In this document: positions 3,303-36,929 of the stretch, piece after piece
How the letters are laid out: each line of letters begins with the position of its first letter
Position numbering within the stretch: the stretch's first letter is position 1
DNA from: Rhizophagus irregularis
Taxonomy: Eukaryota > Glomeromycota > Glomeromycetes > Glomerales > Glomeraceae
Assembly: GCF_026210795.1 (NCBI RefSeq)
Contig: NC_089430.1
Span: 744,001-808,000, forward strand
Length of the DNA: 64,000 bases
Direction: 5' to 3'
The notes under the pieces: generated by a model
What the model was told of the DNA's origin: nothing
Database searches by the model: none
What the model saw: the letters and a program-made list of their open reading frames with translations, nothing else
Position numbers and translations under genes: made by a program

Positions 3303-3955
3303 TTCTTTATCTTTTAGATGTAGTAACAGTAGGTTAGTTTCAGATCAACATGATAAGAGCTCATCGTGACATTTTTTTGTCAGAGAAATCAATTCTCTAT
3401 CTTTTATTTCGGAGATAAAATTTAAAACTGATTTGCACTAATTAAATCGTTTGAAGTCAAAAAAGAAATTGTAGTAAGTTTATTTCATTTATGAAATAAC
3501 AAACGACATCATATTCAAACTTACTTGCAATTTTTATTGTATTTCTCTAAATCCAAACTTTTGTGTTATAATAGAAAGAATTCGTTGCTTTCCATCTAAT
3601 CTGCATTTATTAACTTTGATCGCTTCTTTGATTGTTTTCTTTTATAAATTCGACTTCATTATTATAAACACCATTTAGCAAATTCTTACTAAATAAGTAT
3701 GGAAGTGTGGTACTGTCACTACTGGAATTCACCGCGCACGTCCAAAATTCAGGCTATATAAAAGTAAATTTTTTTTTTTTAGTAAAAATCTGATTCAATT
3801 TTTAACTACGTGATTATATCAGATCGAATTTTATGAAATTTTAGTATAAATGGCTAATTACAAAAAAACTTACCTTCGATTTTTGCTTTTTATAAGGCGT
3901 TAAATTCGTACAACCCACGCTTTTCATCATCTTCCTCCAAGCACGTAACTCCCAG
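3303..3955. other. Non-coding stretch before satellite
   Basis: Contains scattered fragments that may continue the minus-strand pseudogene upstream (short Lys-rich readings near 3350-3450), with several stops. No intact gene was seen. Confidence 0.45.
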
Positions 3956-5279
3956 TTCTGACCTACACTGACTATGAACAAAAAAAGTAAAAAATAAACT
4001 CAACCAAACGCGGCCCATTTCGAGCTCTCACGTAATGGTTGTGATTCTTAGATAGTTCATAATAAAGTAAAAAAACCATTAACAATAAACATACCAAAAG
4101 TGAATACAAATTTCTTAATCAGCACGGCAGATCACTGACTCTGACCTACACTGACTATGAACAAAAAAAGTAAAAAATAAACTCAACCAAACGCGGCCCA
4201 TTTTGAGCTCTCACGTAATGGTTGTGATTCTTTAGATAGTTCATAATAAAATAAAAAACCATTGACACTAAACATACCAGATCACCAGTTCTGACCTATA
4301 CCGACTTTGAACGAAAAAAAGCAAAAATAAACTCAACCAAACGCGGCCCATTTCGAGCTCTCACGTTATGGTTGTGATTCTTTAGATAGTTCATAACAAA
4401 GTAAAAACCCATTAACAATAAACATACCAAAAGTGAATACAAATTTCTTAATCAGCACGGCAGATCACCGGTTCTGACCTACACCTACTATGAACAAAAA
4501 AAAGTAAAAAATAAACTCAACCAAACGCGGCCCATTTTGAGCTCTCACGTAATGGTTGTGATAATTCATAACAAAGTAAAAACAATTAACACTAAACATA
4601 CCAGATCACCGGTTCTGACCTACACCGATTATGAACGAAAAAAAGTAAAAATAAACTCAACCAAACGCGGCCCATTTTGAGCTCTCACGTTATGGTTGTG
4701 ATTCTTTAGATAGTTCATAATAAAGTAAAAAACCATTAACACTAAACATACCAAAGTGAATACAAATTTCTTAATCAGCACAGCAGATCACCGGTTCTTG
4801 ACCTACACCGACTATGAACAAAAAAAAGTAAAGAACAAACTCAACCAAACGCGGCCCATTTCGAGCTCTCACGTAATGGTTGTGATTCTTAGATAGTTCA
4901 TAATAAAGTAAAAAAACCATTAACAATAAACATACCAAAAGTGAATACAAATTTCTTAATCAGCACGGCAGATCACTGACTCTGACCTACACTGACTATG
5001 AATAAAAAAAGTAAAAAACTCAACCAAACGCGGCCCATTTCGAGCTCTCACGTAATGGTTGTGGTTCTTTAGATAGTTCATAACAAAGCAAAAAACCATT
5101 AACACTAAACATACCAGATCACCGGTTCTGACCTACACTATGAACAAAAAAAGTAAAAAATAAACTCAACCAAACGCGGCCCATTTCGAGCTCTCACGTT
5201 ATGGTTGTGATTCTTTAGGTGATTCATAATAAAGTAAAAATCATTAACACTAAACATATCAAAAGTGAATACAAATCTC
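3956..5279 (+). repeat. Satellite array, 8 units of long and short forms
   Basis: Eight head-to-tail units each begin TTCTGACCTACAC (with small changes) and contain AACTCAACCAAACGCGGCCC and GAGCTCTCACGT, followed by GGTTGTGATTCTTTAGATAG. Starts lie near 3956, 4140, 4289, 4471, 4611, 4794, 4980 and 5122. Long units are about 183-185 bp. Short units are about 140-149 bp and lack the AAGTGAATACAAATTTCTTA block. The order is long, short, long, short, long, long, short, then a final partial unit. No open reading frame spans units. Confidence 0.85.
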
Positions 5280-5403: not shown

Positions 5404-5693
5404 GCAATGTTATTATCCGTAAAAGCCTTTTGTTGTTCGTATGGACCATCCCGTCAACTTTTTTTTTGTTAGAGAGTTTAGTTTTATCCATAAAAGACTT
5501 TAATTGTTCGTATGGACTGTCCCGACACCTTTTTTGTTATTAGAGTTTAGTTTTATCCATAAAAGACTTTTATTGTTCGTATGGACTGGCCCCGTCATCC
5601 TTTTTTTTGTTGGAGAGTTTAGTTTTATTCATAAAAGCTTTTTTGTTGTTCGTATGAACAGTCCCATCATCTTTTTTTGTTAGAAGAGCGGAA
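5404..5693 (+). repeat. Four tandem copies of a ~70-bp unit
   Basis: Each unit carries the words ATCCATAAAAGACTTT, TTGTTCGTATGGAC and TCCCGTCA followed by a T run and GTTAGAG. The copies start near 5404, 5468, 5538 and 5609. The sequence just upstream (5300-5400) is less AT-rich and may be part of the same repeat family. A short reading frame crossing this block is not credible as a gene. Confidence 0.7.
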
Positions 5694-6834
5694 CAGAGTT
5701 TTTTTATTAGGTAGTAGCTTTTTTGTTAGGAAGATGTCCCCTTTTTATATTATTTTCTTATCCCGTGATATAAGTCTATCAACCATGACGTCATCTTTAC
5801 TATAATTTTAAATGGCCGAGCTATCATATGACTAAAAAGGTATTGAAATCATTGCGTCACGACTCACGAGTTTTTTTTTCTTTCAAAAAAAAAAAAAATT
5901 GATAAATTTGTAACCCCAACTTTTGTATAACTTATTCTTAATGAACAGCAAATTTCCATATCGGTTAGACTATTTGCCTTAAAATACAGCGGAGAGTCAA
6001 ACCTAGAAATACAAATATGCATGATCGCATGATCAATTTAATCAATATTAGCAAAATTTTAATGTAAGAAAGTTTATCATCTGAAAATAGATGATAATTA
6101 CACAGCCTCAAAAAAAAAATAAAATAAAATAAAATTCCGACCAAAAAAATCTTTTCATCTAATCAAATTATTCTAACCATGATAAATATGGAATAGATCA
6201 GGCGTAAAGGTATCACGTGTTTCCTTAAGGCTATTTATAATTTTATACAGAGCAAGCGATGACATTACATGCAAATATTATATTAATAATATGTAACTTA
6301 CCTACAATAATTTTATAAATTAATAATTTTGTTAGTTTAAATTAGCAGTCACCCGTTACTTCGCACTGACATCAATGGTTTTAAACCATTTAATAAAGTA
6401 TGCACAAATAAATTACATTCATGATAAGAAAAATCATAATATCTATGAAGAATTTAAAATATATAAATATAAATTGAATTTCTTAACCATTTAATAATTG
6501 TAATAATTGTTGACAATAAACTTTTACCAAAATTATCACAAAATTTGCTTGAAATCTTTAAATGATGAAGATATTATGATATTACAATTGAAGTTGACAA
6601 TGTCCCTGACGTAAAATATTTCGTGCTCATATGATTATTTTAAATTATCGTTCCCCTTATTTACGAAGAAGTTTTATCAACAAATAAAAAGAGGAATGAT
6701 GAAACTTTGGCGCACCAAATATTTCACCTGAAATTTTTAATGTGGTTAATGTGGTTTTAAGGTAAAAAAAATATATATATATAAAATAAATATTTATAAT
6801 TATTATACTTTATTATTCAAAAGTGTTTATTTTA
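5694..6834. other. Non-coding AT-rich stretch
   Basis: No gene, RNA gene or clear repeat was seen. Confidence 0.5.
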
Positions 6835-14128: not shown

Positions 14129-14795
14129 TCATGCTTACCATATTATACTTTCCACTTTTATTGTCGAAATTTTGTAAAAATTTTACAATTAGTTAAAATT
14201 AGTTACAGTTAACTAGGAGATGGAAGTTATCAAGAGCAAAAAAATATTTCCATAAATCTCGTGAAACAAGATGGTTAATTTTAATCTTTAGAAATTGCGT
14301 GAAAATTAGTTTTTCCCATGAAATAGATGTTTAAAAATTGTTCTTATCATTAAAGTATTGTGAACTTATATAGTGTCGCAGCCGTCGTCCACAAAAATGG
14401 TATCCGGATTTATATTCTGAATCTTTGGGATTAGGTTAATGGTATTAGGGTTGTAATTTTGTTGCATAGTGTCTCATCCTAACCAGCTACCATTTTTTAC
14501 GACATCTCACATGATAAATTGTCTTCCTAAAGCATAATCCTACGTTTCACTCAATAAAATATTGATAAAAATGATATATTTAAATAATTTAAATATATAG
14601 TAAGTTAACTACAAAATCGCCAGAAAACAGCCCAAATAAATAATAATAAAATATAGATAATATACATATATATTTTAAGATTTTTACGAAACAAAAAAAA
14701 ATCTAATACTACTTATTTAATGCATGAAGTCACAGTATCAAACAAAAAAGTTGACTAGTAAATTGTATATCAACCGTTTTATATAGGGTTTTTTC

Positions 14796-17267
14796 TTATT
14801 GTTCCTATCAGAATAAATATAATTAATCAATAAATAGTTCATATTAAAATTTAAATAAACAAAATAAAAAAAATAAATACTAACCAATTCTTTTTTAATA
14901 TTGCTAATATATTCTGATACTTTATGTATTCCATCATTTTCTTGATATAATTTATACCATTTTAAAGCCTTTCCTTTATTTACTGGTACTTGATTATCTA
15001 AAGTATCTATTCCATATTCATAACATATAGCTAAAGAATATTGAGAGGGTATAAATCCATTTTTAGCAGAATTTTTATATAATTCATATGCTTTAAAATT
15101 ATTTTTTTGTATACCATAACCATATTCATAAAAATTTGCAAGATAATATAAGGCTATATTACATCCATTGTTAGCAGCAATTTGATAAAATTTAAATGCT
15201 TTTTTGAGATCTTTTTTAATACCATATCCATAATGATAACACCTTCCAACATGATAATAACCATTTATAACATTATGCTGACTTGCATGTGTATACCACT
15301 TAAAAGCCATATCCAAATCTTTATCGACTCCAAACCCTTTATAATGAAAAAATCCAATAATCACTTTATAATGTTGTGTAGCTTGATTATTAGCAAAATA
15401 ATTCAAAATTTCGCGTGATTTTGCCTTATGATTTTCCAAAAATTTATAAAAATCGAAACTCTTTGTAAATCCATTATTGTGATATTTTAAATATGCTTGA
15501 AAAATTTCCTCTAAAAGAGTATTTGATTTTTTTTCGTTCTCATTATTTTTAGATGAAATGGGTGATGATGGTGGAGGTGTATCTAATAATACACACTAAT
15601 ATTATTAATAAATCATAAGCAAATCATAAATATACACGTACTTACTGGTTTGATTTTCAGTTTGATTAACGCTTTTATCCTCATTAATGTTAGACGAAAC
15701 GGGTGATGATGGCGGAGGTGTATCTAATAATACAACATTAATATTATTAATAAATCTTAAGCAAATCATTAATAAATAAATATGTACTTACTAGTTTGAT
15801 TTTCAGTTTGATTAACGCTTTTATCCTCATTAATGTTAGACGAAACGGATGATGATGGCGGAGGTTTATCTAATAACACAATATTAATGTTTTTAAATAA
15901 AATTTTAAACAAACCAACAATAAATAAATGTGCACTTACCAGTTTGATTTTCAGTTTGACTAACATCAGATGAGATGGATGATTTTCTTTCGTTATCAAT
16001 ATAAAATGAAACAGATGATAATGGTGTACCTAATAACGTATTGTCATTAGTATATGTAAACAAACATAATAACAAATAATATATTGTACTTACTGATTTG
16101 AAAATCACTTGATTTTGATGATTGAGATTCTGTTTCATTATTATTATTATTCTCAGTAATCTCCGAATAGCCTTCATTATCGGTGTTAAATTCTAAAGAA
16201 ATTTTATTTAATTTATCAAAAACATCATCAATAGTTGGTCTTAAATCTGGATTATCATCCCAACATTTCTGATAAAGATCCACATAAGATGAAGGTGTGT
16301 CAATTATTGGCTGTTCTCTATAACCCATTGCGATTTTATAACCTAAAATTTGAATTGGAATGGTTGAAAAAGGCGGATATCCACTTGAAATTTCCCATAA
16401 AAGAACACCTAAACTGTAAACATCAGACTTTTTATTTCTAACATAGTTGTCAGTTTTATAACATTGTGGTTCGACATATGCTGGCATTCCATAAATTTTT
16501 GAAATTGACGTAACATCGACAGTCGTTTGTTTGGATAATCCAAGGTCCGCAATCATCAATGTATTATCATTAACTAATATATTTTTTGCATGCTATAAAT
16601 AAAATAAAATGAAATAAAATTTTAGAATTTATATATTTATATTATAAAAAATAAATTTTATATTACCAAATCTCTATGAATTATTTCTCTAGAATGCAAA
16701 CACTTCAATCCCAATGTAATATCCAAAGCCATTTGAATTTTGTCTTTCCATTGAAGTGAAGCAAAGTTATTTTCTAAATATTCTCTTAAATTTCCCTGAT
16801 TGGCGTAGTGTAATACCATAATATAATTGTTTGATGACGGCTCTAAACCAATAATTAGTTAAAATAATTTTTTTATTTAAAAAAAAAGTATAAAATATTA
16901 TATCTTTACCTTTGGTAATTCCAAAACACCGGTTTATATTTGGATGAAAATTGACCTTTCTTAAATTCTTTAACTATTTAAAATACAATAATAATAAAAT
17001 TTAGGCTTAGTACTAACTACAGTATCATATTCAAAATTAATTACGTACCTCTTTAAGAAACTTGTTCATATTATCTTCATTGATTGAAGAATTGCTTGCA
17101 AGAATTTTTAATGCTACTTTACTTCTACAACTTTTCCAATCAGCTCTATTTACTATTCCGAAGGCTCCATTACCAATATTTTTCATATTGCTAAATTCAT
17201 TATACTCGAAATAATTGATATCATCATCTTTTATTTTTTTGTCAATCCAATCATTTGGTGATGTCAT
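14796..17267 (-). CDS. Protein kinase with C-terminal Sel1-like repeats
   Basis: Nine inferred exons (high to low): 17267-17049, 16973-16910, 16842-16667, 16592-16094, 16029-15940, 15869-15792, 15723-15646, 15582-14885 and 14804-14796; about 636 residues. All joins keep frame and use GT-AG. The kinase domain shows a glycine loop IGNGAFGIV, lysine K54 in VALK, catalytic loop HRDLHAKN, DLG instead of DFG, then SDVYSLGVLLWE. A Ser/Pro/Asn linker made of copied micro-exons follows, then about four Sel1-like repeats (for example GYYHVGRCYHYGYGIKKDLK and YYLANFYEYGYGIQ), which usually serve as adaptor surfaces. All main catalytic residues are present, so activity is plausible. The last 9-base exon is weakly supported; without it the frame would run to a stop at 14738. 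The product is probably cytoplasmic, as no signal peptide or membrane segment is seen. Confidence 0.85.
15646..16029 (-). repeat. Tandemly copied micro-exons in the kinase-Sel1 gene
   Basis: Exons 15646-15723 and 15792-15869 are both 78 bases. Exon 15940-16029 is 90 bases, and the start of the last large exon (from 15582) repeats the same beginning. Each encodes a version of PPPSSxVSSNINEDKSVNQT. Each is flanked by introns of 63-70 bases that also resemble each other. All are in the same phase (1-1), so addition or skipping of copies keeps the frame. They lengthen the linker between kinase and Sel1 repeats. Confidence 0.8.
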
Positions 17268-21350: not shown

Positions 21351-22187
21351 TTAGATTGCGTAATCTAAACCTTGAGAATTATCATCATATTCTGGAAGGT
21401 CATCTGTAAAAGGATTAAGTAATCGAGATGTGTAAATAGCTTGTGGATGGGTAACTACTTGGTAATTTTTAATGGATGAAAGATTTGCTTTTCTATATTC
21501 TTCTGCTTTCTTAAATTGCATTCCAATTTCTTCATTTTCTGTGGAAAAATCCACCATATATGACTTATGTAATGACTCAATTAATTTATTTATACCAAAA
21601 ATATCTGGTCTATTATTCGGGTTTAAATCCCAACACTTTTTCATTAAATCAATATACCATTTTGGTGCTTCTGGTTCATTTATTTCAGGTCTAACTCCTT
21701 TACAAATATCTAATGCAAGAAGATGATCATGTGCACGATTGTAAAAAGGTTGTTTTCCAGTTGCTACAAAATACATTATCATACCAAAACTATAGATATC
21801 TGATTCCTGGGTATAAGGCCTCCTTCTCAATACTTCAGGAGCCACATAAGGCATAACTCCATAGATTTTAGTTTCATCTATATCTATATCACCAACTTTT
21901 CCACATAATCCCATATCTGAAATTAATATCCAATCCTCAAAATTATGCATTTTACTTAAAAATAATATACTTTTTTGATGAATTTCTTTAAGGCCATTAA
22001 TAATATTGAGCAGTGCAAGTAGTTTATCTTTCCAATTAAAATACTCGTAGTTTTCATTTATCCAATGATTGAAATTGCCTTCTGCTGCATATTGGAGAAC
22101 CATAACATATTCTTTCGTATCTGGATGTTGAGATATTCCATATATATTAAGAATATTACTTTCTATATTTATTGAGTATTTTTTAAC
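21351..22187 (-). CDS. C-lobe exon of the array gene, lacking HRD catalytic loop
   Basis: 279 codons including stop. It starts VKKYSINI, supplies beta4-beta5 (YGISQHPDTKEYVMVLQYA) and the C-lobe. The catalytic loop should follow IHQKS, but the sequence passes straight to ILFLSKMHNFEDW, as if about ten residues holding the HRD...N motif had been removed in frame. The Mg-binding motif is DMG (ISDMGLCG). The rest of the activation segment (MPYVAPEVL), SDIYSFGMIMYF, and CWDLNPNNRPD are well kept. The tail AIYTSRLLNPF resembles the AIYISR tail of the kinases at 35288 and 43526. The fold is probably intact and phosphotransfer absent: a pseudokinase, presumably a binding or scaffold domain. Confidence 0.85.
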   Translation of the reverse strand, partial: VKKYSINIESNILNIYGISQHPDTKEYVMVLQYAAEGNFNHWINENYEYFNWKDKLLALLNIINGLKEIHQKSILFLSKMHNFEDWILISDMGLCGKVGDIDIDETKIYGVMPYVAPEVLRRRPYTQESDIYSFGMIMYFVATGKQPFYNRAHDHLLALDICKGVRPEINEPEAPKWYIDLMKKCWDLNPNNRPDIFGINKLIESLHKSYMVDFSTENEEIGMQFKKAEEYRKANLSSIKNYQVVTHPQAIYTSRLLNPFTDDLPEYDDNSQGLDYAI

Positions 22188-25100
22188 CTATTAAATATTT
22201 AAGTAACAAAAAATAGTTAAATTTATAAAGAATTTTTCTATTAAAATGATTTTTAAAAAATTTCATACCTCATTTAAAAATTTATTACTAATATTTTGTG
22301 ACTTATGTAAGCATTTTAAGGCAACTATTTTATTTGGTTTCCTTTTATATATATTTTTATCTGTACCATATTTTAATGGACCATTTTTCCAATTTGCAGA
22401 ATATACTGTAGCAAAGCCACCTTCACCTACTTTCTTAAAATTATTGAACTGATTATATGGTATCCATTCAACTACTATATCATCACATTTATTAACTTTT
22501 AATTGCATTTCTTGAATGAAATCATCAATTTTTTTATTTCCACTCGTCCACATAAGAACTAAAATATAATCACCTGTATATGAATTTTGAGAAATTCCAT
22601 ACAATACTTGAAAAGCTTTATGCTTTGTTGGATAAATTTTAGCCTAAACATAAATAAAGAGATTGTAAACATATTAATTACTAAAAAAAGTATTAAATAC
22701 TTAAAAAAATTTCATACCTCATTTATTAAAGAATCAATAGATTCTTGTGAATTATGTAAATATTTTAAAGCAACTTTTTTATTTGAATCTCTTGTATAAT
22801 ATTTATCATCCTGATGCTTTTTGTGTAATGGACCATCCTTCCATATTGCTAAATATGATGTTATAAGGTCATTTTTGCCTGTTTCTTCAATTTCATTAAA
22901 CTGATTGTATGGTATCCATTCAAGTATTATATCATCATAATCATTAATTTTAAGTTGCCTTTCTTGAATGAAATTATCAATTCTTTCATTTCCACTAATC
23001 CAATTTATCAAGTTTATAGTATAACTTTGAACAAAAACATAATCACCTGTATCTGAATTTTGAGATATTCCATACAATAATTGAAATGCTTCATGTTTTG
23101 TTGAATATTTTTTAGCCTAATAAAAGAGATTGTAAATAAATATATTAATTAAAAAGTATTTAAATATTTAAAGAAATTACATACCTCATTTATTAAAGAA
23201 TCAATGGATTCTTGTGAATTATGTAAACATTTTAGAGCAACTTTTTTATATGAATCCCTTGTAAACTCTCTATACTGATAATGTAATGGACCATCCTTCC
23301 ATATTGCAGAATATATTGTTATAAGACCATTTTTGCCTGTTTCTTTAATTTCATTAAACTGATTGTATGGTATCCATTCAAATACTATATCACTATGATA
23401 GTTATAAATTTGTAATTGCATTTCTTGGATGAAATTATCAATTTTTTCGTTTCCACTAATCCAATTTACCATGTTTATAGTATAACTTTGAACCAAAATA
23501 TAATCTCCTGTATCATTATTTTGAGATATTCCATATAATGCTTGAATTGCATCATATACTGTTGAATATTTTTTAGCCTAAATATAAATAAAAAAGGTTG
23601 TAAATATATTTAACTAAAAAAATATTAAATATTTGTAGAAATTTCATACCTCATTTATTAAAGAATCAATTGATTGTGAATTATTTAAATATTTTAAAGC
23701 AACTTTTTTATTTGAATCTCTTGTGTACTCACTATACTCACTATCATATTTAAGTAATGGACCATCCTTCCATATTGCAGAATATATTGTTATAAGGCCA
23801 TTTTTGCCTGTCTCTTTAATTTCATTGAACTGATTGTATGGTATCCATTCAAGCACTATATCACTATGATAGTTATAAATTTGTAATTGCATTTCTTGGA
23901 TGAATTCATCAATTTTTTCATTTCCACTTGTCCACATAAGAACTAAAATATAATCTTCTGTATCTGGATTTTGAGATATTCCATACAATTCTTGAAATAC
24001 ATTATGTTTTATTGGATATTTTTCAGCCTAAGTATAAATAAAGAGATTGTAAATATATTAATTAAAAAGTATTTAAATATTTGAAGAAATTTCATACCTC
24101 ATTTATTAAAGAATTAATGGATTCTAAACATTTAAAAGCAACTTCTTCATTTGAATATCTTTCATACTGATCATATAATGGACCATCCTTCCATATTGCA
24201 GAATATACACCATTTTTGCCTGTTTTCTTAATTTTATAAAACTGATTGTATGGTATCCATTCAAGTACTATTTTATAATGGGCATTAATTTTTTGAATGA
24301 AATCATCAATTTTTTTACTTCCACTAATCCAATTTGTCAAGTTTTTAGTATGACTTTGAACCAAAATATAATCTCCTGTACTTTGATTTAGAGATATTCC
24401 ATACAATACTTGAAATGCATCATATTTTGTTGAATATTTTTTAGCCTAAATATAAATAAAAAAATTATAAATATATTAATTAGAAAAATATTTAAATATT
24501 TGAAGAAATTTCGTACCTCATTTATTAAAGAATCAATTGATTGTAAATTATGTAAATATTTTAAAGCAACTTTTTTATTTGAATCTCTTGTGTATTCACT
24601 ATTCTGATAATTAAATGGACCATCCTTCCATATTGCAGAATATATTGTTACAAGACCATTTTTGCTTGAATCTTTAATTTCATTAAACTGATTGTATGGT
24701 ATCCATTCAAATACTATATCATTATATTTATTAATTTTTAATTGCATTTCTTGGATGAAATCATCAATTATTTCATTTCCACTAATCCAATTTGTCAAGT
24801 TTATAGTATAACTTTGAACCAAAATATAATCTCCTGTATTTTGATTTTGAGATATTCCATACAATACTTGAAATAATCCATTGTCTGTTAAATATTTTCT
24901 AGCCTAAATATAAATAAAGAGATTGTAAACATATTAGGTACAAAAAAAGTATTAAATACTTAAAGAAATTTCATACCTCATTTATTAAAGAATCAATAGA
25001 TTCTTGTGAATTATGTAAATATTTTAAAGCAACTTTTTTATTTGAATCCCTCGTATAATTTTTATCATCCTTATGCTTTTTGTGTAATGGACCATCCTTC

Positions 25101-28100
25101 CATATTGCAGAATATAAAGTTATAAGGCCATTTTTGCCTGTTTCTTTAATTTCATTAAACTGATTGTATGGTATCCATTCAAGTACTATACCATTATATT
25201 TATTAATTTTTAATTGCATTTCTTGGATGAAATCATCAATTTTTTTTATTTCCACTTGTCAATATATAATTATTTTGAACAAAAATATAATCTTGTGTAT
25301 CAGGATTTTGAGATATTCCATATAATATTTGAAATTTACCATCTTTTATTAGATATTTTTTAGCCTAATAAAAAAAGATTGTAAATATATTAATTAAAAA
25401 AGTATTTAAATATTTGAAGTTACTTCATACCTCATTTATCAAAGAATCAATTGATTGTGAATTATGTAAATATTTTAAAGCAACTTCTTTATATGAATCT
25501 CTTGTACAATCACTCCATTTATTTTTCTTATATAATGGACCATCCTTCCATATTGCAGAATATACTGTTATAAGGCCATTTTTGCCTGTCTCTTTAATTT
25601 CATTAAACTGATTGTATGGTATCCATTCAAGCACTATATCATCATATTCATTAATTTTAAGTTTCCTTTTTTGAATGAAATTATCAATTTTTTCGTTTCC
25701 ACTAATCCAATTTGTCAAGTTTATAGTATAACTTTGACCCAAAATATAATCTCCTGTATCTTGATTTTGAGATATTCCATACAATACTTGAAATGCTTTA
25801 TGTCTTGTTAGATATTTTTTAGCCTAAATGTAAATAAAAAAGATTGTAAATATATTAATAATTAAAAAAGTATTTAAATATTTGAAGAAATTTAATACCT
25901 CAGTTATTAAAGAATCAATGGATTCTTGTAAATTATGTAAACATTTTAAAGCAACTTTTTTATTTGAATTTCTTGTATACTCATTATACTGATAATGTAA
26001 TGGACCATCCTTCCATATTGCAGAATATATTGTTATAAGGCCATTTTTGCCTGTTTCTTTAATTTCATTAAACTGATTGTATGGTATCCATTCAATCACT
26101 ATATCATCACAATCATTAATTTTTAATTGCATTTCTTGGATGAAATTATCAATTTTTTCGTTTCCACTAATCCAATTTGCCATGTTTATAGTATAACTTT
26201 GAACTAAAATATAATCTCCTGTATCTTGTTTTTGAGATATTCCATACAATACTTGAAATAATCCATTGTCTGTTAAATATCTTTTAGCCTAAATATAAAT
26301 AAAAGTGATTGTAAATATATTAATTAAAAAAGTATTCAGATAGTTGAAGAAATCTCATACCTCATTTATTAAAGAATCAATTGATTGTGAATTATGTAAA
26401 TATTTTAAAGCAACTTTTTTATTTGAATCTCTTGTGTATTCACTATTCTGATAATGTAATGGACCATCCTTCCATATTGCAAAATAAATTGTTATAAGGT
26501 TATTTTTGCCTGTCTCTTTAATTTCATTAAACTGATTGTATGGTATCCATTCAAATACTATATCATCACAATCATTAATTTTTAATTGCATTTCTTGGAT
26601 GAAATTATCAACTTTTTCAATTCCACTTATCCATATATAATTATTTTGAACCAAAATATAATCTCCTGTATCTTGACTTTGAGATATTCCATATAATATT
26701 TGAAAATTTTCATCTTTTGTTAGATATTTTTTAGCCTAACAAAAAGAGATTGTAAATATATTAATTAAAAAAGTATTTACATATTTAAAGTTACTTCATA
26801 CCTCATTTATCAAAGAATCAATTGATTGTGAATTATGTAAATATTTTAAAGCAACTTTTTTATTTGAATCTCTTGTATAATTTTTATCATCCTTATGCTT
26901 TTTGTGTAATGGACCATCCTTCCATATTGCAGAATATATTGTTATAAGGCCATTTTTGCCTGTTTCTTTAATTACATTAAACTGATCGTATGGTATCCAT
27001 TCAAATACTATATTATCATATTTATTAATATTTAATTTTTTTAATTGCATTTCTTTAATGAAATTATCAACTTTTTTAATTCCACTTATCCATATATAAT
27101 TATTTTGAACAAGAATATAATCTCCTGTATCTGGGTTTTGAGATATTCCAAATAATATTTGAAAATTTTCATCTTTTATTAGATATTTTTTAGCCTAATA
27201 AAAGAAATTGTAAATATATTAATTAAAAAAGTATTTAACTGAAATATTTGAAGAAATTTCATACCTTATTTATTAAAGAATCTATGGATTGAAAATTATG
27301 TAAACATCTTAAAATGACTTTTTCATTTAAATCTCTTGTATAATTTTTATCATCCTGATGCTTTTTGTGTAATGGACCATCCTTCCATATTGCAGAATAT
27401 ATTGTTATCTGGCCATTTTTACCTGTCTCTTTAATTTCATTAAACTGATTGTATGGTATCCACTCAAATACTATATTATTATATTCATTAATTTTTAATT
27501 GCATTTCTTGGATGAAATTATCAACTTTATCATTTCCACTTGTCAATATATAATTATTTTGGACAAGAATATAATCTCCTGTATCTGGGTTTTGAGATAT
27601 TCCATATAATATTTGAAATTTTTCATCTTTTCTTAAATATTTTTTAGCCTAATAAAAGAGATTGTAAATATATTAATTAAAAAAGTATTTAAATATTTGA
27701 AGATATTTCATACCTCATTTATTAAAGAATTAATTGATTGTGAATTATATAAATATTTTAAAGCAACTTTTTTATTTGAATCTCTTGTGTACTCACTATA
27801 CATACTATCTTCTGTGTACTCATTACTACACTCACTATACTGCTGTAGTAATGGGCCATCCTTCCATATTGCAGAATATATTGTCATAAGTCCATTTTTG
27901 CCTGTCTCTTTAATTTCATTAAACTGATTGTATAGTATCCACTCAAATACTATATTATTTAGTTGCATTTCTTTAATGAAATTATCAACATTTTCATTTT
28001 CACTTGTCCATGTATAATTATTTTGAATAAAAATATAATCTCCTGTATCTGGGTTTTGAGACATTCCATATAATATTCGAAATTTTTCATCTTTTGTTAG

Positions 28101-31100
28101 ATATTTTTTAGCCTAATAAAAAGAAATTGTAAATATATTAATTAAAAAAGTATTTACCTGAAATATTTGAAGATATTTCATACCTCATTTATTAAAGAAT
28201 CTATGGATTGTAAATTATGTAAACATTTTAAAGCAACTTTTTTATTTGAATCTCTTGTATAATTAGTTTCCCCCAAACTACTCTGCCTGTGTAATAATGG
28301 ACCATCCTTCCATATTGCAGAATATATTGTTATCTGGCTATTTTTACCTGTCTCTTTAATTTCATCAAACCGATTGTATGGTACCCATTCAAATACTATA
28401 TCATTATATTTAATAATTTTTAATTGCATTTCTTGGATGAAATTATCAATTTTTTCGTTCCCACAAATCAAATTTTCCATGTTTATAGTATAATTTTGAA
28501 CAAAAACATAATCTCCTGTATCTGAATTTTGAGATATTCCATACAATACTTGAAATGCATCATATTCTGTTGAATATTTTTTAACCTAATAAATGAAATT
28601 GTAAATAAATATATTAATTAAAAAGTATTTAAATGTTTAAAGAAATTACATACCTCATTTATTAAAGAGTCAATGGATTGTGAATTATGTAAACATTTTA
28701 AAGCAACTTTTTTATTTGAATCTCTTATGTACTCACTATACTGATAATGTAATGGACCATCCTCCCATATTGCAGAATATATTGTTATAATGCCATTTTT
28801 GCTTGTCTCTTTAATTTCATTAAACTGATTGTATGGTATCCATTCAAATACTATATCATTACATTTATTAATTTTTAATTGCATTTCTTGGATGAAATCA
28901 TCAATTTTTTCGTTTCCACTAATCCTATTTGTCATGTTTATAGTATAACTTTGAACTAAAATATAATCTCCTGTACTTTGATTTTGAGATATTCCATACA
29001 ATACTTGAAACGCACCATATTTTGTTGAATATTTTTTAGCCTATTATAAATAAAAAGGTTTGTAAATATATTAACTAAAAAAAATATTTAGATATTTGAA
29101 GAAATTTCATACCTCATTTTTTAAAGAATCAATTGCTTGTGAATTATGTAAATATTTTAAAGCAACTTTTTCATTTGAATCTCTAGCATATTTGCATTCC
29201 TGATGCTTTTTGTGTAATGGACCATCCTTCCATATTGCAGAATATATTGTTATAAGGTCATTTTTGCCTATCTCTTTAATTTCATTAAACTGATAGTATT
29301 GTATCCATTCAAATACTATATCATCATAATCATTAATTTTTAATTGCATTTCTTGGATGAATTCATCAATTTTTTCATTTCCACTAATCCAATTTGCCAT
29401 GTTTATAGTATAACTTTGAACAAAAACATAATCACCTGTATCTGAATTTTGAGATATTCCATACAATAATTGAAATACTTCATGTTTTGTTGAATATTTT
29501 TTAGCCTAATAAAAGAAATTGTAAATAAATATATTAATTAAGAAGTATTTAAATATTTAAAGAAATTACATACCTCATTTATTAAAGAATCAATGGATTC
29601 TTGTAAATTATGTAAACATTTTAAAGCAACTTTTTTATTTGAATCTCTTGTGTACTCACTATATATACTATCTACTGTATACTCATCACTATACTCACTA
29701 TATATATATACTATCTCCTGTGTACTTATTACTATACTTACTATACTGTAATGGACCAACCTTCCATATTGCAGAATACATTGTTATAAGGCCATTTTTG
29801 CCTGTCTTTTTAATTTCATTAAACTGATTGTATGGTATCCATTCAAATACTATATCATCACAATCATTAATTTTTAATTGCATTTCTTGGATGAAATCAT
29901 CAATTTTTTCGTTTCCACTAATCCAATTTGCCATGTTTATAGTATAATTTTGAACAAAAACATAATCTCCTGTATCTGAATTTTGGGATATTCCATATAA
30001 TAATTGAAATACTTTATTTTTTGTTGAATATTTTTTAGCCTAATAAAAGAATTGTAAATAAATATATTAATTAAAAAGTATTTAAATATTTAAAGAAATT
30101 AAATACCTTATTTATTAAAGAGTCAATGGATTCTTGTGAATTATGTAAACATTTTAAAGCAACTTTTTTATTTGAATCTCTTATATAACTACTATGACAA
30201 TACTTCTTGTATAGTGGACCATCCTTCCATATTGCAGAATATACTGTTATCTGGCCATTTTTGCCTGTTTCTTTAATTTCATTAAACTGATTGTATGGTA
30301 TCCATTCAAGCACTATATCATCACAATCATTAATTTTTAATTGCATTTCTTGGATGAAATCATCAATTTTTTCGTTTCCACTAATCCAATTTGCCATGTT
30401 TATAGTATAATTTTGAACCAAAATATAATCTCCTGTATCTTGATTTTGAGATATTCCATACAATACTTGAAATAATCCATTGTCTGTTAAATATTTTTTG
30501 ACCTAAATATAAATAAAAGTGATTGTAAATATATTAATTAAAAAAGTATTCAAATAGTTGAAAAAATCTCATACCTCATTTATTAAAGAATCAATGGATT
30601 TTTGTGAATTATGTAAACATTTTAAAGCAACTTTTTTATTAGAATCTCTTGTATAATTTTTATCATCCTGATGCTTTTTGTGTAATGGACCATCCTTCCA
30701 TATTGCAGAATATAAAGTTATAAGGCCATTTTTGCCTGTTTCTATAATTTCATTAAACTGATTGTATGGTATCCATTCAAGCACTATATCATTATATTTA
30801 TTAATTTTTAATTGCATTTCTTGGATGAAATCATCAATTTTTTTTATTTCCACTTGTCAATATATAATTATTTTGAACAAAAATATAATCTTGTGTATCA
30901 GGATTTTGAGATATTCCATATAATATTTGAAATTTTTCATCTTTTGTTAGATATTTTTTAACCTAATAAAAGAGATTGTAAATATATTATTAAAAAAGTA
31001 TTTAAATATTTGAAGTTATTTTATACCTCATTTATCAAAGAATCTATGGATTGTAAATTATGTAAACATTTCAAAGCAACTTTTTTATTTGAATCTCTTG

Positions 31101-33636
31101 TATAATTTGTTTCCTTATAATTCGCCACTAATGGACCATCCTTCCATATTGCAGAATATACTGTTATAAGGCCATTTTTGCCTGTCTCTTTAATTTCATT
31201 AAACTGATTGTATGGTATCCATTCAAATACTATATTATTATATTTATTAATTTTTAATTGCATTTCTTGGATGAAATTATCAACCTTTTCATTTTCACTT
31301 GTCCATATATAATTATTTTGAGCAAGAATATAATCTCTTGTATCTGGGTTTTGAGATATTCCATATAATATTTGAAATTTTAGATATTTTTTAGCCTAAT
31401 AAAAAGAGATTGTAAATATATTATTAAAAAAGTATTTAAATATTTGAAGTTATTTCATACCTCATTTTTCAAAGAATCTATGGATTGTAAATTATGTAAA
31501 CATTTTAAAGCAACTTTTTTATTTGAATCTCTTATGTATTCACTATACTGATAATGTAATGGACCATCCTTCCATATTGCAGAATATATTGTTATCTGGC
31601 CATTTTTGCCTGTCTCTTTAATTTCATTAAACTGATTGTATGGTATCCATTCAAATACTATATCATTATATTTATTAATTTTTAATTGCATTTCTTTAAT
31701 AAAATTATCAATCTTTTCATTTTTACTTGTCCATATATAATTATTTTGAACAAGAATATAATCTCCTGTATCTTGATTTTGAGATATTCCATATAATGTT
31801 TGAAAATTTTCATCTTTTGTTAGATATTTTTTAGCCTAATGAAAAGAGATTGTAAATATATTAATTAAAAAAGTATTTAAATATTTGAAGTTTTTTCATA
31901 CCTCATTTATTAAGGAATCTATGGATTGTAAATTATGTAAACATTTTAAAGCAACTTCTTTATATGAATCTCTTGTATAAATTCCATCCCAACTCCTTGA
32001 GTTTGATAATGGACCATCCTTCCATATTGCAGAATATACTGTTATCTGGCCATTTTTGCCTGTCTCTTTAATTTCATTAAACTGATTGTATGGTATCCAT
32101 TCAAATACTATATCATTATATTTATTAATTTTTAATTGCATTTCTTGGATGAAATTATCAACCTTTTCATTTTCACTTATCCATATACAATTATTTTGAA
32201 CAAGAATATAATCTCCTGTAATTGGGTTTTGAGATATTCCATATAATATTTGAAAATTTTCATCTTTTGTTAGATATTTTTTAGCCTAATAAAAAGAGAT
32301 TGTAAATATATTAATTAAAAAAGTATTTAAATATTTGAAGTTTTTTCATACCTCATTTATTAAGGAATCTATGGATTGTAAATTATGTAAACATTTTAAA
32401 GCAACTTCTTTATATGAATCTCTTGTATAAATTCCCTCCCAACTCCTTGAGTTTGATAATGGACCATCCTTCCATATTGCAGAATATACTGTTATCTGGC
32501 CATTTTTGCCTATTTCTTTAATTTCATTAAACTGATTGTATGGTATCCATTCAAATACTATATTATCACAATTATTAATTTTTAGTTGCATTTCTTGGAT
32601 GAAATCATCAATGTTTTTGTTTCCACTAATCCAATTTGTCATGTTTATAGTATAACTTTGAACTAAAATATAATCTCCTGTACTTTGATTTTGAGATATT
32701 CCATACAATACTTGAAACACACCATATTTTGTTGAATATTTTTTAGCCTATTATAAATAAAAAAGTTTTAAATATATTAACTAAAAAAAATATTTAAATA
32801 TTTGAAGAAATTCATACCTCATTTATTAAAGAATCAATTGATTGTGAATTATGTAAACATTTTAAAGCAACTTTTTTATTTGAATCTCTTGTGTACTCAT
32901 TATACTCACTATCACTTTTGTAATCATACAGATACTCTTTGTGTAATGGACCATCCTCCCATATTGCAGAATATATTGTTATAAGGTCATTTTTGCTTGT
33001 CTCTTTAATTTCATTAAACTGATTGTATGGTATCCATTCAAATACTATATCATTATATTTATTAATTTTAATTGCCTCTCTTGAATGAAATTATCAATTT
33101 TTTCATTTCCACTTGTCCACATATAATTGTTTTGAACCAAAATATAATTTCCTGTATCTGAATTTTTAGATATTCCATACAATACTTGAAATGCATTATA
33201 TTTTGTTGAATATCTTTTAGCCTAAATAATAAAAAAGGTTGTAAATATATTAACTAAAAAAAATATTTAAATATTTGAAGAAATTTCATACCTCATTTAT
33301 TAAAGAATCAATTGATTGTGAATTATGTAAACATTTTAAAGCAACTTTTTTATTTGAACCTCTTGTCTAATTTTTATCATATTGATGCTTTTTGTGTAAT
33401 GGACCATCCTCCCATATTGCAGAATATATTGTTATAAGGCCATTTTTGCCTGTCTCTTTAATTTCATTAAACTGATTGTATGGTATCCATTCAAATACTA
33501 TCATATTATCAGAATCATTAATTTTAAGTTGCCTTTCTTGTATGAAATCATCAATTTTTTTATTTTCACTGGCCCGATTGATTTCTAAATATTCCTGAAT
33601 ATTATTTTCTGTCAAGAGTATTTTTTGAGAAAACAT
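21351..33636 (-). CDS. Giant pseudokinase gene: 25 kinase N-lobe exons plus one C-lobe exon
   Basis: Read right to left, the unit begins at ATG 33636-33634 (MFSQKILL) and ends at the stop at 21351. It consists of 25 similar exons (22269-33636) plus a final exon (21351-22187), about 10.5 kb of coding sequence in total. Each middle exon carries AKKYST...LYGISQN, VQSYTIN or VQNNY, SGNEKIDDFIQEMQL, EWIPYNQFNEIKETGKNGL, IYSAIWKDGPL, a variable piece, KKVALKCLHNSQ and SLINE. In kinase terms this is end of alphaC, beta4-beta5, linker, beta1-beta3 and alphaC, with the VALK lysine and alphaC glutamate kept. Most glycine loops are degenerate (GKNG). Every exon starts after AG and ends before GTATG in phase 0; introns are 64-75 bases. 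Twenty exons are intact and five are broken, so a full-length product is doubtful unless broken exons are skipped. Automated gene finders would probably split this unit into several models. It may instead be a cassette bank for one C-lobe. Confidence 0.75.
24977..25364 (-). pseudogene. Array unit G, +1 frameshift shared with unit S
   Basis: 388 bases. The same eight-A run as in unit S falls in the linker (about 25240-25247). The neighbouring exon in the 3' direction (F) starts with the distinctive KYLTDNGLFQ, as does R next to S. The pair was therefore probably copied as a block after the frameshift arose. Confidence 0.75.
29574..30039 (-). pseudogene. Array unit Q, microsatellite-expanded loop with frameshift
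   Basis: 466 bases, the longest unit. The variable loop has grown by repeats encoding EYT(V/G)DSIYSEYT-like pieces and holds a TA run (about 29699-29711) with four bases more than the matching run a little further on, breaking the frame. The two flanking halves are open in their expected frames. Confidence 0.75.
30575..30962 (-). pseudogene. Array unit S, +1 frameshift shared with unit G
   Basis: 388 bases. In the linker SGNKKIDDF an A run has eight bases where seven would keep frame (about 30838-30845), giving a stop just after. Unit G carries the same change at the same codon. Downstream of the shift the exon is open to its donor. Confidence 0.75.
32818..33221 (-). pseudogene. Array unit X, -1 frameshift
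   Basis: 404 bases, one short of a multiple of three. The A run in the sequence encoding QLKINKY has lost one base relative to sister units (near 33071). The variable loop is long (KEYLYDYKSDSEYNEYTRDS). Splice sites are intact. Confidence 0.75.
33292..33636 (-). pseudogene. Array unit Y (first exon) with nonsense codon
   Basis: The only unit with its own start, MFSQKILLTENNIQEY, replacing the AKKY...YGISQN part. The codon that is TAT (Tyr of YTRDS) in sister units is TAG here (33369-33367). The frame is otherwise intact to the donor. If used as first exon it would end the product after about 89 residues. Confidence 0.8.
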
Positions 33637-35287
33637 TGTTTTCAAAAGTTCAAAATTTTTTCCAAATAAAAATCTTATTTATAATAAACTTTGTAATGTA
33701 CAAGTAACAGGTAACACAAAAATCTGCATAAATTACTTATATAAGCATTATGTAATAAGGCTTGTTAGTAAAATTTCAATGTCGATCATATCAAAATTTA
33801 CTTGAAAAAATTTTTATCTTTATACAAATTCTTTTTAAATATTTAGGTAATAAATACACAATTTGCATTGAGGACACTCAAAAAATATTAAAATAGGTAA
33901 GGTCTAGCCAAAAAAAAATTACAGTATTAGTGTCAGGCAGCTACTAGAACAGGAAATAAAACTCTGGCCAGCATTATCGAAAATTGTCCAAAAAAGAAAG
34001 ATATACATGATTATTTGGCCTATTTAAATTCAAAATTCAATTATTTTGTTGTCAAAGTGGCTAAAATTGTTAAAAAAAAAAAAAATTTTTTGTTAAGTTC
34101 TTATCAATACGATTATTAGTTTAGAATTCAAAGACTTCATGTACCTCCCAGCCGTTCTCCTTTTTTAATAATAGAAAATGGGTCTCGTATAATCTGATTA
34201 CATTATAATGAAAGTATTACCAATAATGTTTATTATTTTTAATACTATATTATAAATTTGTACATCAATGATTAGAATATTTTGAATATTTTGAATTTTA
34301 TAATTTTATGGTATCAATTCTCGCATGAGAGTATTGGTAACAAGCAGGAGAAAAGATTTGAAATGTAATATTAAAGATGCATAATTCTTTACATCATACT
34401 TGATACTTCTCCAAATCTCCAATAAATGGTTTATTACGATAAGAATAACAATTTTGATTAGGCATTTATTTATGAAATTGTACTTTACGATTTGTTACTC
34501 TTTTAACCCCTTTTATTCATTTTTATGAGAGTTTTTATTGAGATTTTATTTCAAATAGATAATCGTAAATGACTTTTTCATCCTTGTAAACAAACTATCA
34601 TCGAATATGATCCAATGATCATCCGTAAATCATTTAGACATTTACGTTATTCAAGTTGGTACCTCTTTTAATTTAAAATCAAATGTTGAACATGTAAAAA
34701 TGCGAATTATATGTCATTGTATTTTTTTGTAGCCATATGGCGACCTACCGAAAAGAGTTTTATTTAAATGTCAACTTGAAATATAAAGAATGTGATGTTA
34801 ATCTGAGTGGTGTAAATTATATAAGATACACTGTTTCAAAAGAAATTATACAAACTGGTGTAGAAATTAAAAAGTTTCATAATTTGATAAAACTCATCAT
34901 TTATTTTTTCAATTTTATCCATTCAAATACATTATTACTTAATATATATCAAGTATATGAAAGGATGGTTCATTATACTAGTTTATTGGTGAATCCGTGA
35001 ATGTACTGATAAGGTATGAAATTCCTTTTCGATTTATAATGTGATATGTGCGGCTGAAAAAATATGTTGTACAGACTATTCCAATTTTGAATTAGTGATC
35101 TGCTGGATCTACAAATTATATTTTTCATATGCACGAATAGTTACACTTTATTAATTTGTATTCAAGAAAAATAAATTTTAAACTTCCGGTTTACTCTTTC
35201 TTTTTTTTGTCCAAACTTTCATTTCATTTTATATATCAAATATTATTTAAATAACTATTATATAATTTTATATAATATTTATATAAT
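33637..35287. other. Spacer between N-lobe array and kinase gene
   Basis: Probably contains the promoter of the array (upstream of 33636), but no motif stands out. Near 34955-35030 the plus strand has ATATGAAAGGATGGTTCATTA and then GTATGAAATTCC, similar to the array's exon and donor; this may be a decayed, inverted array unit. An 87-codon frame at 34737-35000 shows no motif. Confidence 0.4.
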
Positions 35288-36929
35288 ATGAATTATACTA
35301 AACTTAATACAAAATATAAATTTAAAGCTCTTGTTTCAAAAGATTTAAGAGATGAAATTGAAGAAAAGGGAGTATGTTCTAATTGTAAGAGTCCAAATAC
35401 TGGAGAAGACTGGTGTAATAAATGTGATCCAGGACGTTTTTTAAGAGAAGGAAAATCAAGTGGAGATCCTGAATTAGATAAATTAATTTATGAATCACAA
35501 CTTCAAACAAATAATTATTATCATAATTTAGAATGGATACCTTATGATAGGTTTCAAGATATTAAACCTATTGGTAAAGGAGGCTATGCTATTGTTTATT
35601 CAGCTACTTGGTTGGATGGAGAACCTAATGAACTCCATAGAGAACGTACTGGTCCTATTACAGTTGCACTTAAAAAATTTAAGAGCTCATTAAATATCAT
35701 GGAAGCTCTTACTAATGAGGTGAATAAAATTTTTTTTTGGTTAATTATTATTTGAAGTTATTACTAATAAATATTTTTTACTTAGGTTAAAATACATAAT
35801 GAATGTAATACTGGTAGCACTAGATTATACGGTATAACAAGAGGTCCACGATCAAAAGAACCTATAATGGTTTTAGCATATGCTAAACATGGAAATTTAA
35901 GAAATTATTTAAAAGAAAAATTTTCTACTTTAAAATGGGAACACAAATTAAATATATTATCTTTTGTTACATTAAATCTTCAAGTTATTCATGGATCAGG
36001 ATGTATTCATAAAGATTTACATAGTGGAAACATACTCATTGGTTTTAATGATCCAACGTTTAATTTTGGCGAATCTTTAAACTCTAAATTGAGTAGTCTT
36101 GGTTTAAACCTTAATGATGATGAATTTCCTGACACAAAAATTACTGATTTTGGGCTTTCACAATTCATAAATAATTCTAAAACTTCAGATTCTACAAATG
36201 TATGTGGAATACTTCCTTATGTAGCACCTGAGATCTTGGAAGGAGAACCTTATACAGAAGCAAGTGATATTTATAGCTTAGGGATTATTATGACAGAATT
36301 AACTACAGGAAAACCGCCTTATGGAACTGTACCTCATAATGATGATCTTACACTTGCAATTTGCAGTGGTTTAAGACCAAGAGTTGCTAAAGGAACACCT
36401 AAACGTTATATTGATTTAGTAAACCAGTGTCTTGATGCAGAACCACAAGAAAGACCTTCTAGTATTGAATTATATAGAATATTTGAAAATTGGAAATTAA
36501 AATTAGAAGATAAAAAACCATCAAAAATCTTTGACGAATTTTCTGAGGCAGATAAAATTATCTTAGAATCACCTGCTGAAATAACATTACATGATGGAGC
36601 AATTTATATTAGTCGTAATATGAGATTTCCTAATAATCTCCCTAAATCAGTAAATTCCCAAAGAGTTCAATTTGAAGATAATAATGGTGAATATTATCTT
36701 ATTTAATATATATATAATATATAATTACTGTGTAGTTACATAATTTTCATTTTATAGTTTCGGATTCTGATTTAATTAACCGCATGCTTGTTATTGCTAT
36801 TCAAGAACAGAGTCAAGGTATTTTTTTATTTGAATGTTATTATGTTTAATAAAATATAATTAAATTAACTAAAGCTTTTTTTTTATTGTGTAAGATGACG
36901 ATATGAAAATTGAAGTACTGAAAGATTAA
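35288..36929 (+). CDS. TKL-type protein kinase with Cys-x2-Cys head
   Basis: Four inferred exons: 35288-35719, 35786-36686, 36758-36817, 36895-36929; about 475 residues. The N-terminal head has C30, C33, C43 and C46 (VCSNCKSPNTG and WCNKCDPGRF), likely zinc-binding. The kinase domain starts at EWIPYDRF and has glycine loop IGKGGYAIVY, lysine K129 in VALK, glutamate E144, catalytic HKDLHSGN (D221, N226), an insertion of about 30 residues, DFG (D265), LPYVAPEIL and SDIYSLGIIM. Residues needed for activity are present; HKD replaces HRD. The two last small exons were found by comparison with the gene at 43526-45081, which has the same exon plan and phases (0, 1, 1). Without them the second exon reads on to a stop at 36706. 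Substrate is unknown; no membrane segment is seen. Confidence 0.85.

Follow-up and report, generated by a model that had tools for sequence, protein, structure and literature searches.

The window analysed here is a 64,000-nucleotide stretch of the Rhizophagus irregularis genome (C2:744001-808000, C2 being the contig that holds it in a 146.7-Mb, 32-contig assembly). On its minus strand, at 33636-21351, lie 25 repeated exons for a protein kinase N-lobe and, after them, one exon for a C-lobe. We consider it fairly probable that this array belongs, in partly decayed form, to a large family in Rhizophagus and its relatives, whose kinases carry a long half-domain array for docking or recognition. 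A giant protein of this build was well supported as a predicted family, and it is probably not a product of the window locus itself.

Many N-lobes share one C-lobe in predicted proteins and other arrays

Three protein searches with repeat queries, each taken to its best 120 matches, returned 255 deposited proteins from R. irregularis, R. clarus, R. diaphanus, and Glomus cerebriforme. Classified with profiles built in this work, 136 of the 255 consisted of N-lobe repeats plus one C-lobe and 119 of N-lobes only, and none showed another order, such as tandem bilobal kinase domains. Since the queries favoured repeats, these fractions are not those of all kinases, and many N-lobe-only entries may be fragments. 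N-lobe matches shorter than 25 profile positions were ignored and split C-lobe matches were joined; before joining, two C-lobe matches were seen in 16 of 240 proteins. The largest number of N-lobes in a deposited chain was 19, reached by P0241 and by the 3,061-amino-acid P0250, both from R. clarus. The search for proteins with EWIPYNQF-type repeats that an earlier note on this DNA had called for was thus fruitful, and its view that many N-lobes sharing one C-lobe form a real architecture was borne out by these proteins and by further arrays.

The genome was scored with one unit, and the matches (150 of 4,299 candidates were scored) clustered on C2, C16, C11, C9, C18, C5, C12, C13, C7, and elsewhere. 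Very many of the 150 lay on the single contig C16, at about 2.47-4.69 Mb. A DNA pattern for EWIPY[ND]QF occurred 843 times genome-wide (places known for the first 100), and the same pattern read backwards did not occur. Ten further arrays were read, nine of them alike and one diverged. Each of the nine had about 4 to 20 upstream units, and the terminal unit was of the GGF type in eight (none was seen for L043), with Asp replacing the first glycine in some. Eight of the ten further arrays showed a C-lobe, with H-x-D in every one. Internal units with an in-frame acceptor and donor and no stop made up 94 of 98 in the nine arrays, a count that left out the first unit of each locus and drew on best open matches, which favours intact arrays. 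The diverged array (L045, C2:417501-426500) had a spacing of about 540 bases, upstream units mostly lacking a recognisable glycine loop, a GKGGF terminal unit, and a C-lobe with HRDFH; our splice rules found no acceptors there, and open units, exon joins, and the ratio of nonsynonymous to synonymous substitution rates (dN/dS) were evaluated without it.

One gene open throughout was obtained by joining L039 to L049 (C2:1368173-1379017, on the window's contig). It had 22 exons, 21 N-lobes, one C-lobe with HRDFHTGN, and no internal stop, and it would encode 2,983 amino acids; no model of the full-length gene was among the 255 deposited proteins. Two introns within L039 (2565-2810 and 6902-7147) were unusually long at 245 bases, the remaining ones measuring 70-74 bases. 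Deposited gene models, themselves predictions, joined the exons consecutively. The joins that we drew from the genome agreed with them completely for L046/P0128 (11/11), L048/P0132 (9/9), L040/P0139 (9/9), L042/P0150 (7/7), and L047/P0186 (4/4), and incompletely for L041/P0137 (8/9), L044/P0130 (9/10), L043/P0054 (2/8), and L039/P0006 (4/18). Gene models named OCT59 were refined with nanopore cDNA, according to PMC10234402.

Terminal and upstream N-lobes differ in their ATP-binding residues

The N-lobes and C-lobes of the first 240 proteins were compared residue by residue, the 15 found later being left out. After matches covering fewer than 70 profile positions had been dropped, the set held 109 terminal and 1,232 upstream N-lobes. 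Four positions were scored, namely the second glycine of the loop, the Ala and the Lys of VA-x-K, and the Glu of helix C; 225 of the 1,341 units were gapped at one of these and were dropped (10/109 terminal and 215/1,232 upstream). All four residues occurred together in 94 of the 99 terminal N-lobes versus 16 of the 1,017 upstream ones, where the last N-lobe of an N-lobe-only protein was counted as upstream and could be terminal in a truncated model, and where no probability was attached to the contrast because the units are relatives. R. clarus alone gave 23/23 versus 1/230. Taken singly, the lysine was kept in 87% of upstream units, the glutamate in 81%, and the second glycine in 5%, while two core tryptophans were present in 978 of 1,017. 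Judged from these residues, the upstream copies have retained the core but lost part of the ATP site. Terminal units also had a terminal nearest relative in 95 of 109 cases, and upstream units an upstream one in 1,183 of 1,232, with the catalytic columns included. A tree built without those columns (60 terminal and 140 upstream units) required 21 label changes versus about 52 after shuffling, and none of 500 shuffles was as low; with its few columns it did not resolve one origin.

Among 126 deposited C-lobes (125 covered by the tally), at least 95 kept H-x-D, 25 were gapped there, and 5 lacked the D; ISDMGL (87) and APEV (96) were the commonest motifs. The terminal kinase domain matched PF07714 in a Pfam scan, with the glycine loop, beta3 Lys, and helix C Glu in its N-lobe and H-x-D, D-x-G, and APE in the C-lobe. 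The pseudokinase nature proposed in the earlier note accordingly did not extend to most of the family. The upstream units were predicted to have the kinase N-lobe fold (a five-strand sheet plus helix C), and they lacked the full set of ATP-binding residues. Sequence comparison of P0001, which holds N-lobes only, with solved structures gave 12 rows at E ≥0.3, none of them a kinase, and fold prediction was therefore needed. In AlphaFold models, the upstream units took the form of kinase N-lobes. A structural look-up with the model of P0018 returned matches that were taken up by its terminal kinase domain. A Pfam scan of the N-lobe-only proteins P0001 and P0003 detected no kinase domain. BCS1_N (PF08740) scored above its 28.1-bit cut-off on P0001 (34.3 bits) and P0129 (50.4 bits); these matches are probably false and may mislabel the two proteins.

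The same counts bear on the other proposal of the earlier note, a bank of cassettes in which alternative splicing would join one or a few repeated exons to the C-lobe exon and so yield many kinases that differ in their N-lobe. Since the open exons have phase 0-0 and lengths divisible by three, any choice would keep the frame. However, joining an upstream N-lobe to the C-lobe would seldom give what looks like a functional kinase, as the 16 of 1,017 indicates beside the 94 of 99, and the deposited models join units consecutively. With the ATP-binding residues kept in the terminal N-lobe only, we regard interchangeable kinase N-lobes as quite unlikely, although units may be skipped or chosen for another purpose, the open exons being phase 0-0.

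Exon structure of the window array

All 25 EWIPYNQF-type anchors were present, from 33492 to 22469 and 412-534 bases apart, and the N-lobe repeat exons measured 345-466 bases, which upheld the minus-strand exons at roughly 440-bp spacing described earlier. All 25 introns were GT-AG, the 24 between units being 64-75 bases long and the one before the C-lobe exon 81 bases; the intron phase, judged from open units, was 0. Twenty of the 25 N-lobe exons were open, with every splice site kept, again as the note had counted; the broken ones were 1 (a stop) and 2, 7, 9, and 19 (frameshifts). The one C-lobe exon that it placed after the array was located at 22187-21351. Tandem Repeats Finder reported periods of 465 and 450 (scores 6171 and 7496), and such a pattern greatly exceeds what chance would produce.

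Each repeated exon holds a permuted N-lobe. Its first part encodes the end of helix C, beta-4, and beta-5 (AKKY...YGISQN...YILVQ), and its second part encodes a linker, the glycine loop, beta-1 to beta-3 (VALK), and the beginning of helix C (...SLINE). Because each exon holds parts of two successive lobes, whole N-lobes are assembled across exon joins. Unit 25, the last N-lobe, was the sole unit of the 25 with a canonical glycine loop (GEGGFATVY), whereas units 1-24 mostly carried a GKNG-type loop. The motifs listed in the earlier note were therefore in place, but its picture of one N-lobe per exon, all alike, had to be revised on both counts.

Tandem repeats are hard to assemble, which is the case for a false duplication. 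An artefact is nevertheless unlikely, since the units differ (the closest pair, units 7 and 19, is 96.6% identical) and the read N50 is longer than the array. The assembly is taken to be that of DAOM197198 in PMC10234402, which describes nanopore sequencing at 77-85x, a read N50 of 24,957 bp, and uniform coverage. In addition, 11 of 11 L044 exons tested occurred in P0130, from another assembly of the same strain, and similar proteins came from R. clarus. Together these observations leave false duplication, which the earlier note had named as fatal to its reading, with next to no probability.

Constraint on the repeated units

Nei-Gojobori-type counts, which are rough, gave dN/dS of 0.46-0.96 for the upstream units of the nine arrays (pooled 0.53, n=87) and 0.69 for the 19 open upstream units of the window. 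The corresponding ratio of nonsynonymous to synonymous differences per site (pN/pS), taken over ten codons at a time, was 0.2-0.3 in core segments, 0.7-1.0 in the beta2-beta3 loop, and 1.8 in the first ten residues (the end of helix C). Divergence in the window was 0.157 in introns versus 0.177 at synonymous sites. In a neutral simulation on the window exons, 3-6% of units were stop-free at 0.08-0.10 substitutions per site (no indels).

These values were set against the idea that the arrays are selfish or neutral tandem DNA whose copies gene finders string together. Signs of turnover agree with it. Unit 24 is identical in P0013 of R. irregularis, whereas the other open window units were about 65-85% identical to the 255 deposited proteins, a comparison set clustered at 90% and collected without a unit-by-unit search; this difference hints at fast turnover. 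Likewise L042 contained units with identical translations (3458-3712 and 3941-4195; 4380-4646 and 5483-5749), apparently a sign of very recent duplication, and its dN/dS was 0.96. Yet the proportion of open internal units in the nine arrays far exceeded the neutral 3-6% per unit, the core segments were constrained, and the split between terminal and upstream units was consistent, R. clarus included. We therefore regard neutral DNA as a very improbable account of the arrays.

Probable decay of the window copy

The start of exon 1 (LLKTMFSQ...) was common to 4 of 5 other arrays tested (L039, L040, L041, and L043; it was not found in L044), and in the window this exon carries a nonsense TAG at 33369-33367, outside A runs. 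Units 7 and 19 have one frameshift lesion in common. The C-lobe exon has a 30-base in-frame deletion covering the HRDFHTGN catalytic loop. With a stop in exon 1 and frameshifts in four further units, the window as it stands does not encode one giant chain. The giant protein of the earlier note thus stood as a predicted family, with the open 2,983-amino-acid gene on the same contig, and was not supported at the locus for which it was proposed. Its pseudokinase, conversely, fitted the window copy, whose product, even if made, should not act as a kinase because the catalytic loop is deleted. By its sequence, the window copy probably no longer makes a full protein. Sequencing error would less easily explain the exon 1 stop, the unit 9 insert, and the C-lobe deletion.

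A working pseudokinase would be the contrary reading, with the broken units skipped or due to assembly errors and the 30-base C-lobe loss adaptive. Consistent with it, 20 of 25 units are open with all splice sites kept, the loss from the C-lobe preserves the reading frame exactly, units 2, 7, and 19 have their lesions within A runs, and P0013 joins unit 24 to unit 25. It is opposed by the nonsense codon outside an A run in an exon carrying the common start, by the larger insert in unit 9, and by the absence of a full-length model of the locus among the 255 proteins. On balance a functional pseudokinase at the window is unlikely, and partial decay is the better account.

Proposed origin and working of the arrays

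The window also contains two ordinary kinase genes, at 35276-36706 (+) and about 45100-43710 (-), each with two exons and one intron. In both, the intron has the position and phase seen in the array (NE|GT...AG|(V/I)K). An ordinary two-exon kinase gene with a phase-0 intron inside helix C could have been the starting point. A tandem duplication whose ends lay in the exon-1 linker and directly behind beta-5 in exon 2 would create a new exon, in frame on both sides, and a single such event would give exactly the repeated exon. Unequal crossing-over would then multiply it, every copy adding one complete N-lobe across the joins. In the predicted protein, the last N-lobe and the single C-lobe would form one kinase domain with its catalytic residues mostly kept. 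The upstream N-lobes would have kept the fold and lost the ATP-binding features, and would serve as a changing array, variable in length, of docking or recognition modules that contact partners or other kinase lobes and thereby steer the one kinase.

The hyphae of this fungus share cytoplasm among nuclei. More speculatively, and with well under even confidence, the half-kinase may be a repeat module present in probably hundreds of copies, in changing arrays each with one catalytic kinase. Such a module, used much as LRR or WD40 repeats are, would give a diversified repertoire for recognition or docking, possibly in the sensing of self/non-self or of the host.

Several observations weigh against the family reading and its application to the window. 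The 119 N-lobe-only proteins have no C-lobe to share, and no C-lobe was found in the stretch read for 2 of the ten arrays (L042 and L043). The family is known here from genome sequence and predicted gene models, and the docking or recognition role is a probable, inferred one. The modelled protein P0018 has HRN instead of HRD. Of 1,744 Foldseek matches to the P0003 model, 15 reached E ≤0.001; most of these were kinases, TM-scores were low, and four were two-component sensor chains with a probability ≤0.21. The dN/dS values varied, and some arrays showed little constraint. As for decay, the single-base shifts of units 2, 7, and 19 fall in A runs and may be assembly or sequencing errors, and the 255 deposited proteins included no full-length model of the window array. 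The contrast in open internal units, 20/24 in the window versus 94/98 elsewhere, was weak (Fisher p 0.047), the arrays compared having been chosen among the best open matches, where broken units are easier to miss.

Relation to known systems

The kinase N-lobe is normally seen as half of an inseparable fold. Tandem kinase-pseudokinase proteins repeat whole bilobal domains, usually once. Such proteins (JAK, GCN2, and the plant Pm57 and Lr9) resemble the present family in joining a non-catalytic kinase-derived part and a working kinase domain in one chain. In contrast, the N-lobe alone is repeated here, beside one C-lobe, up to 19 times in deposited chains or 21 in the open gene. KIND, the kinase non-catalytic C-lobe domain, is derived from the C-lobe and is not known to be arrayed. 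It likewise reuses one kinase lobe as a stand-alone module, whereas the present repeats match the N-lobe, form long arrays, and are not C-lobe-derived as KIND is by its usual definition. Dscam-type exon banks and titin Ig arrays arose by tandem duplication of phase-matched exons. The likeness lies in growth through duplication of a symmetric exon; the difference is that the repeated exon here is permuted and a complete lobe needs two successive exons, so that the structure comes from including exons in series and not from choosing one exclusively.

Expansion of kinase genes (PF07714) in R. irregularis has been described (PMC6123716, PMC8647823, PMC10234402), with 2,533 kinase genes counted in PMC10234402. 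The arrays share the genome, the superfamily, and the terminal PF07714 domain with that repertoire, but these papers, in the parts available to us, treat kinase gene numbers and expansion, not N-lobe repeats; the available parts of PMC10234402, PMC8647823, PMC6123716, and PMC8786786 made no mention of repeated N-lobes. Our literature search, which did not extend to preprints and most subscription journals, found no description of N-lobe arrays with one C-lobe, in agreement with the earlier note, which knew of no described family of that build. The family of giant kinase-like genes is seemingly large and undescribed. Its significance lies in the N-lobe as a free-standing repeat, in up to 21 copies per predicted chain and in several species, with catalysis apparently left to the last copy and the rest without ATP binding. 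If made as predicted, these proteins would represent a new use of the kinase fold and a natural laboratory for allosteric N-lobe contacts. They would also form a large overlooked part of the arbuscular mycorrhizal kinome, as Pfam gives no kinase domain in two N-lobe-only proteins and BCS1_N in one of them.

Positions of the units and other features of the window

All units of the array are on the minus strand. Unit 1 (33292..33636) is the first coding exon and holds half an N-lobe; its start, MFSQ..., is the one found in other arrays, and the TAG described above interrupts it. Unit 2 (32818..33221) has a frameshift, an A run in it lacking one A. Units 3 (32352..32747), 4 (31902..32285), 5 (31461..31835), and 6 (31027..31395) are open. 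Unit 7 (30575..30962) is frameshifted by +1 in an A run, the lesion it has in common with unit 19, and is followed by the open unit 8 (30107..30502). The frameshifted unit 9 (29574..30039) has an expanded TA-rich insert in the beta2-beta3 loop. The nine units after it are open: 10 (29113..29505), 11 (28654..29040), 12 (28184..28585), 13 (27714..28112), 14 (27265..27648), 15 (26802..27194), 16 (26361..26735), 17 (25899..26288), and 18 (25431..25823). Unit 19 (24977..25364) is frameshifted in the same way as unit 7. Open again are units 20 (24517..24903), 21 (24098..24445, the shortest internal unit), 22 (23650..24027), 23 (23185..23577), and 24 (22718..23116), the last with its identical stretch in P0013, which comes from another deposited contig. 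Unit 25 (22269..22643), the terminal N-lobe exon with GEGGFATVY and VALK, is open, and the C-lobe exon (21351..22187) encodes the end of helix C, beta4-5, and a C-lobe with DMG and APE from which the HRDFHTGN loop is deleted.

More kinase genes or pieces of them were seen in the window at 56837-58210 (+) and 16783-16131 (-). Sel1 repeats (PF08238) were encoded by an open reading frame (ORF) at 14738-15595 (-). Two further ORFs matched Herpes_ori_bp (PF02399; 50276-52774, +) and Uma2 (PF05685; 63092-63877, +), and from these matches both are possibly of viral or mobile origin. A separate tandem repeat of period 146 with 2.9 copies was located at 15539-15964.

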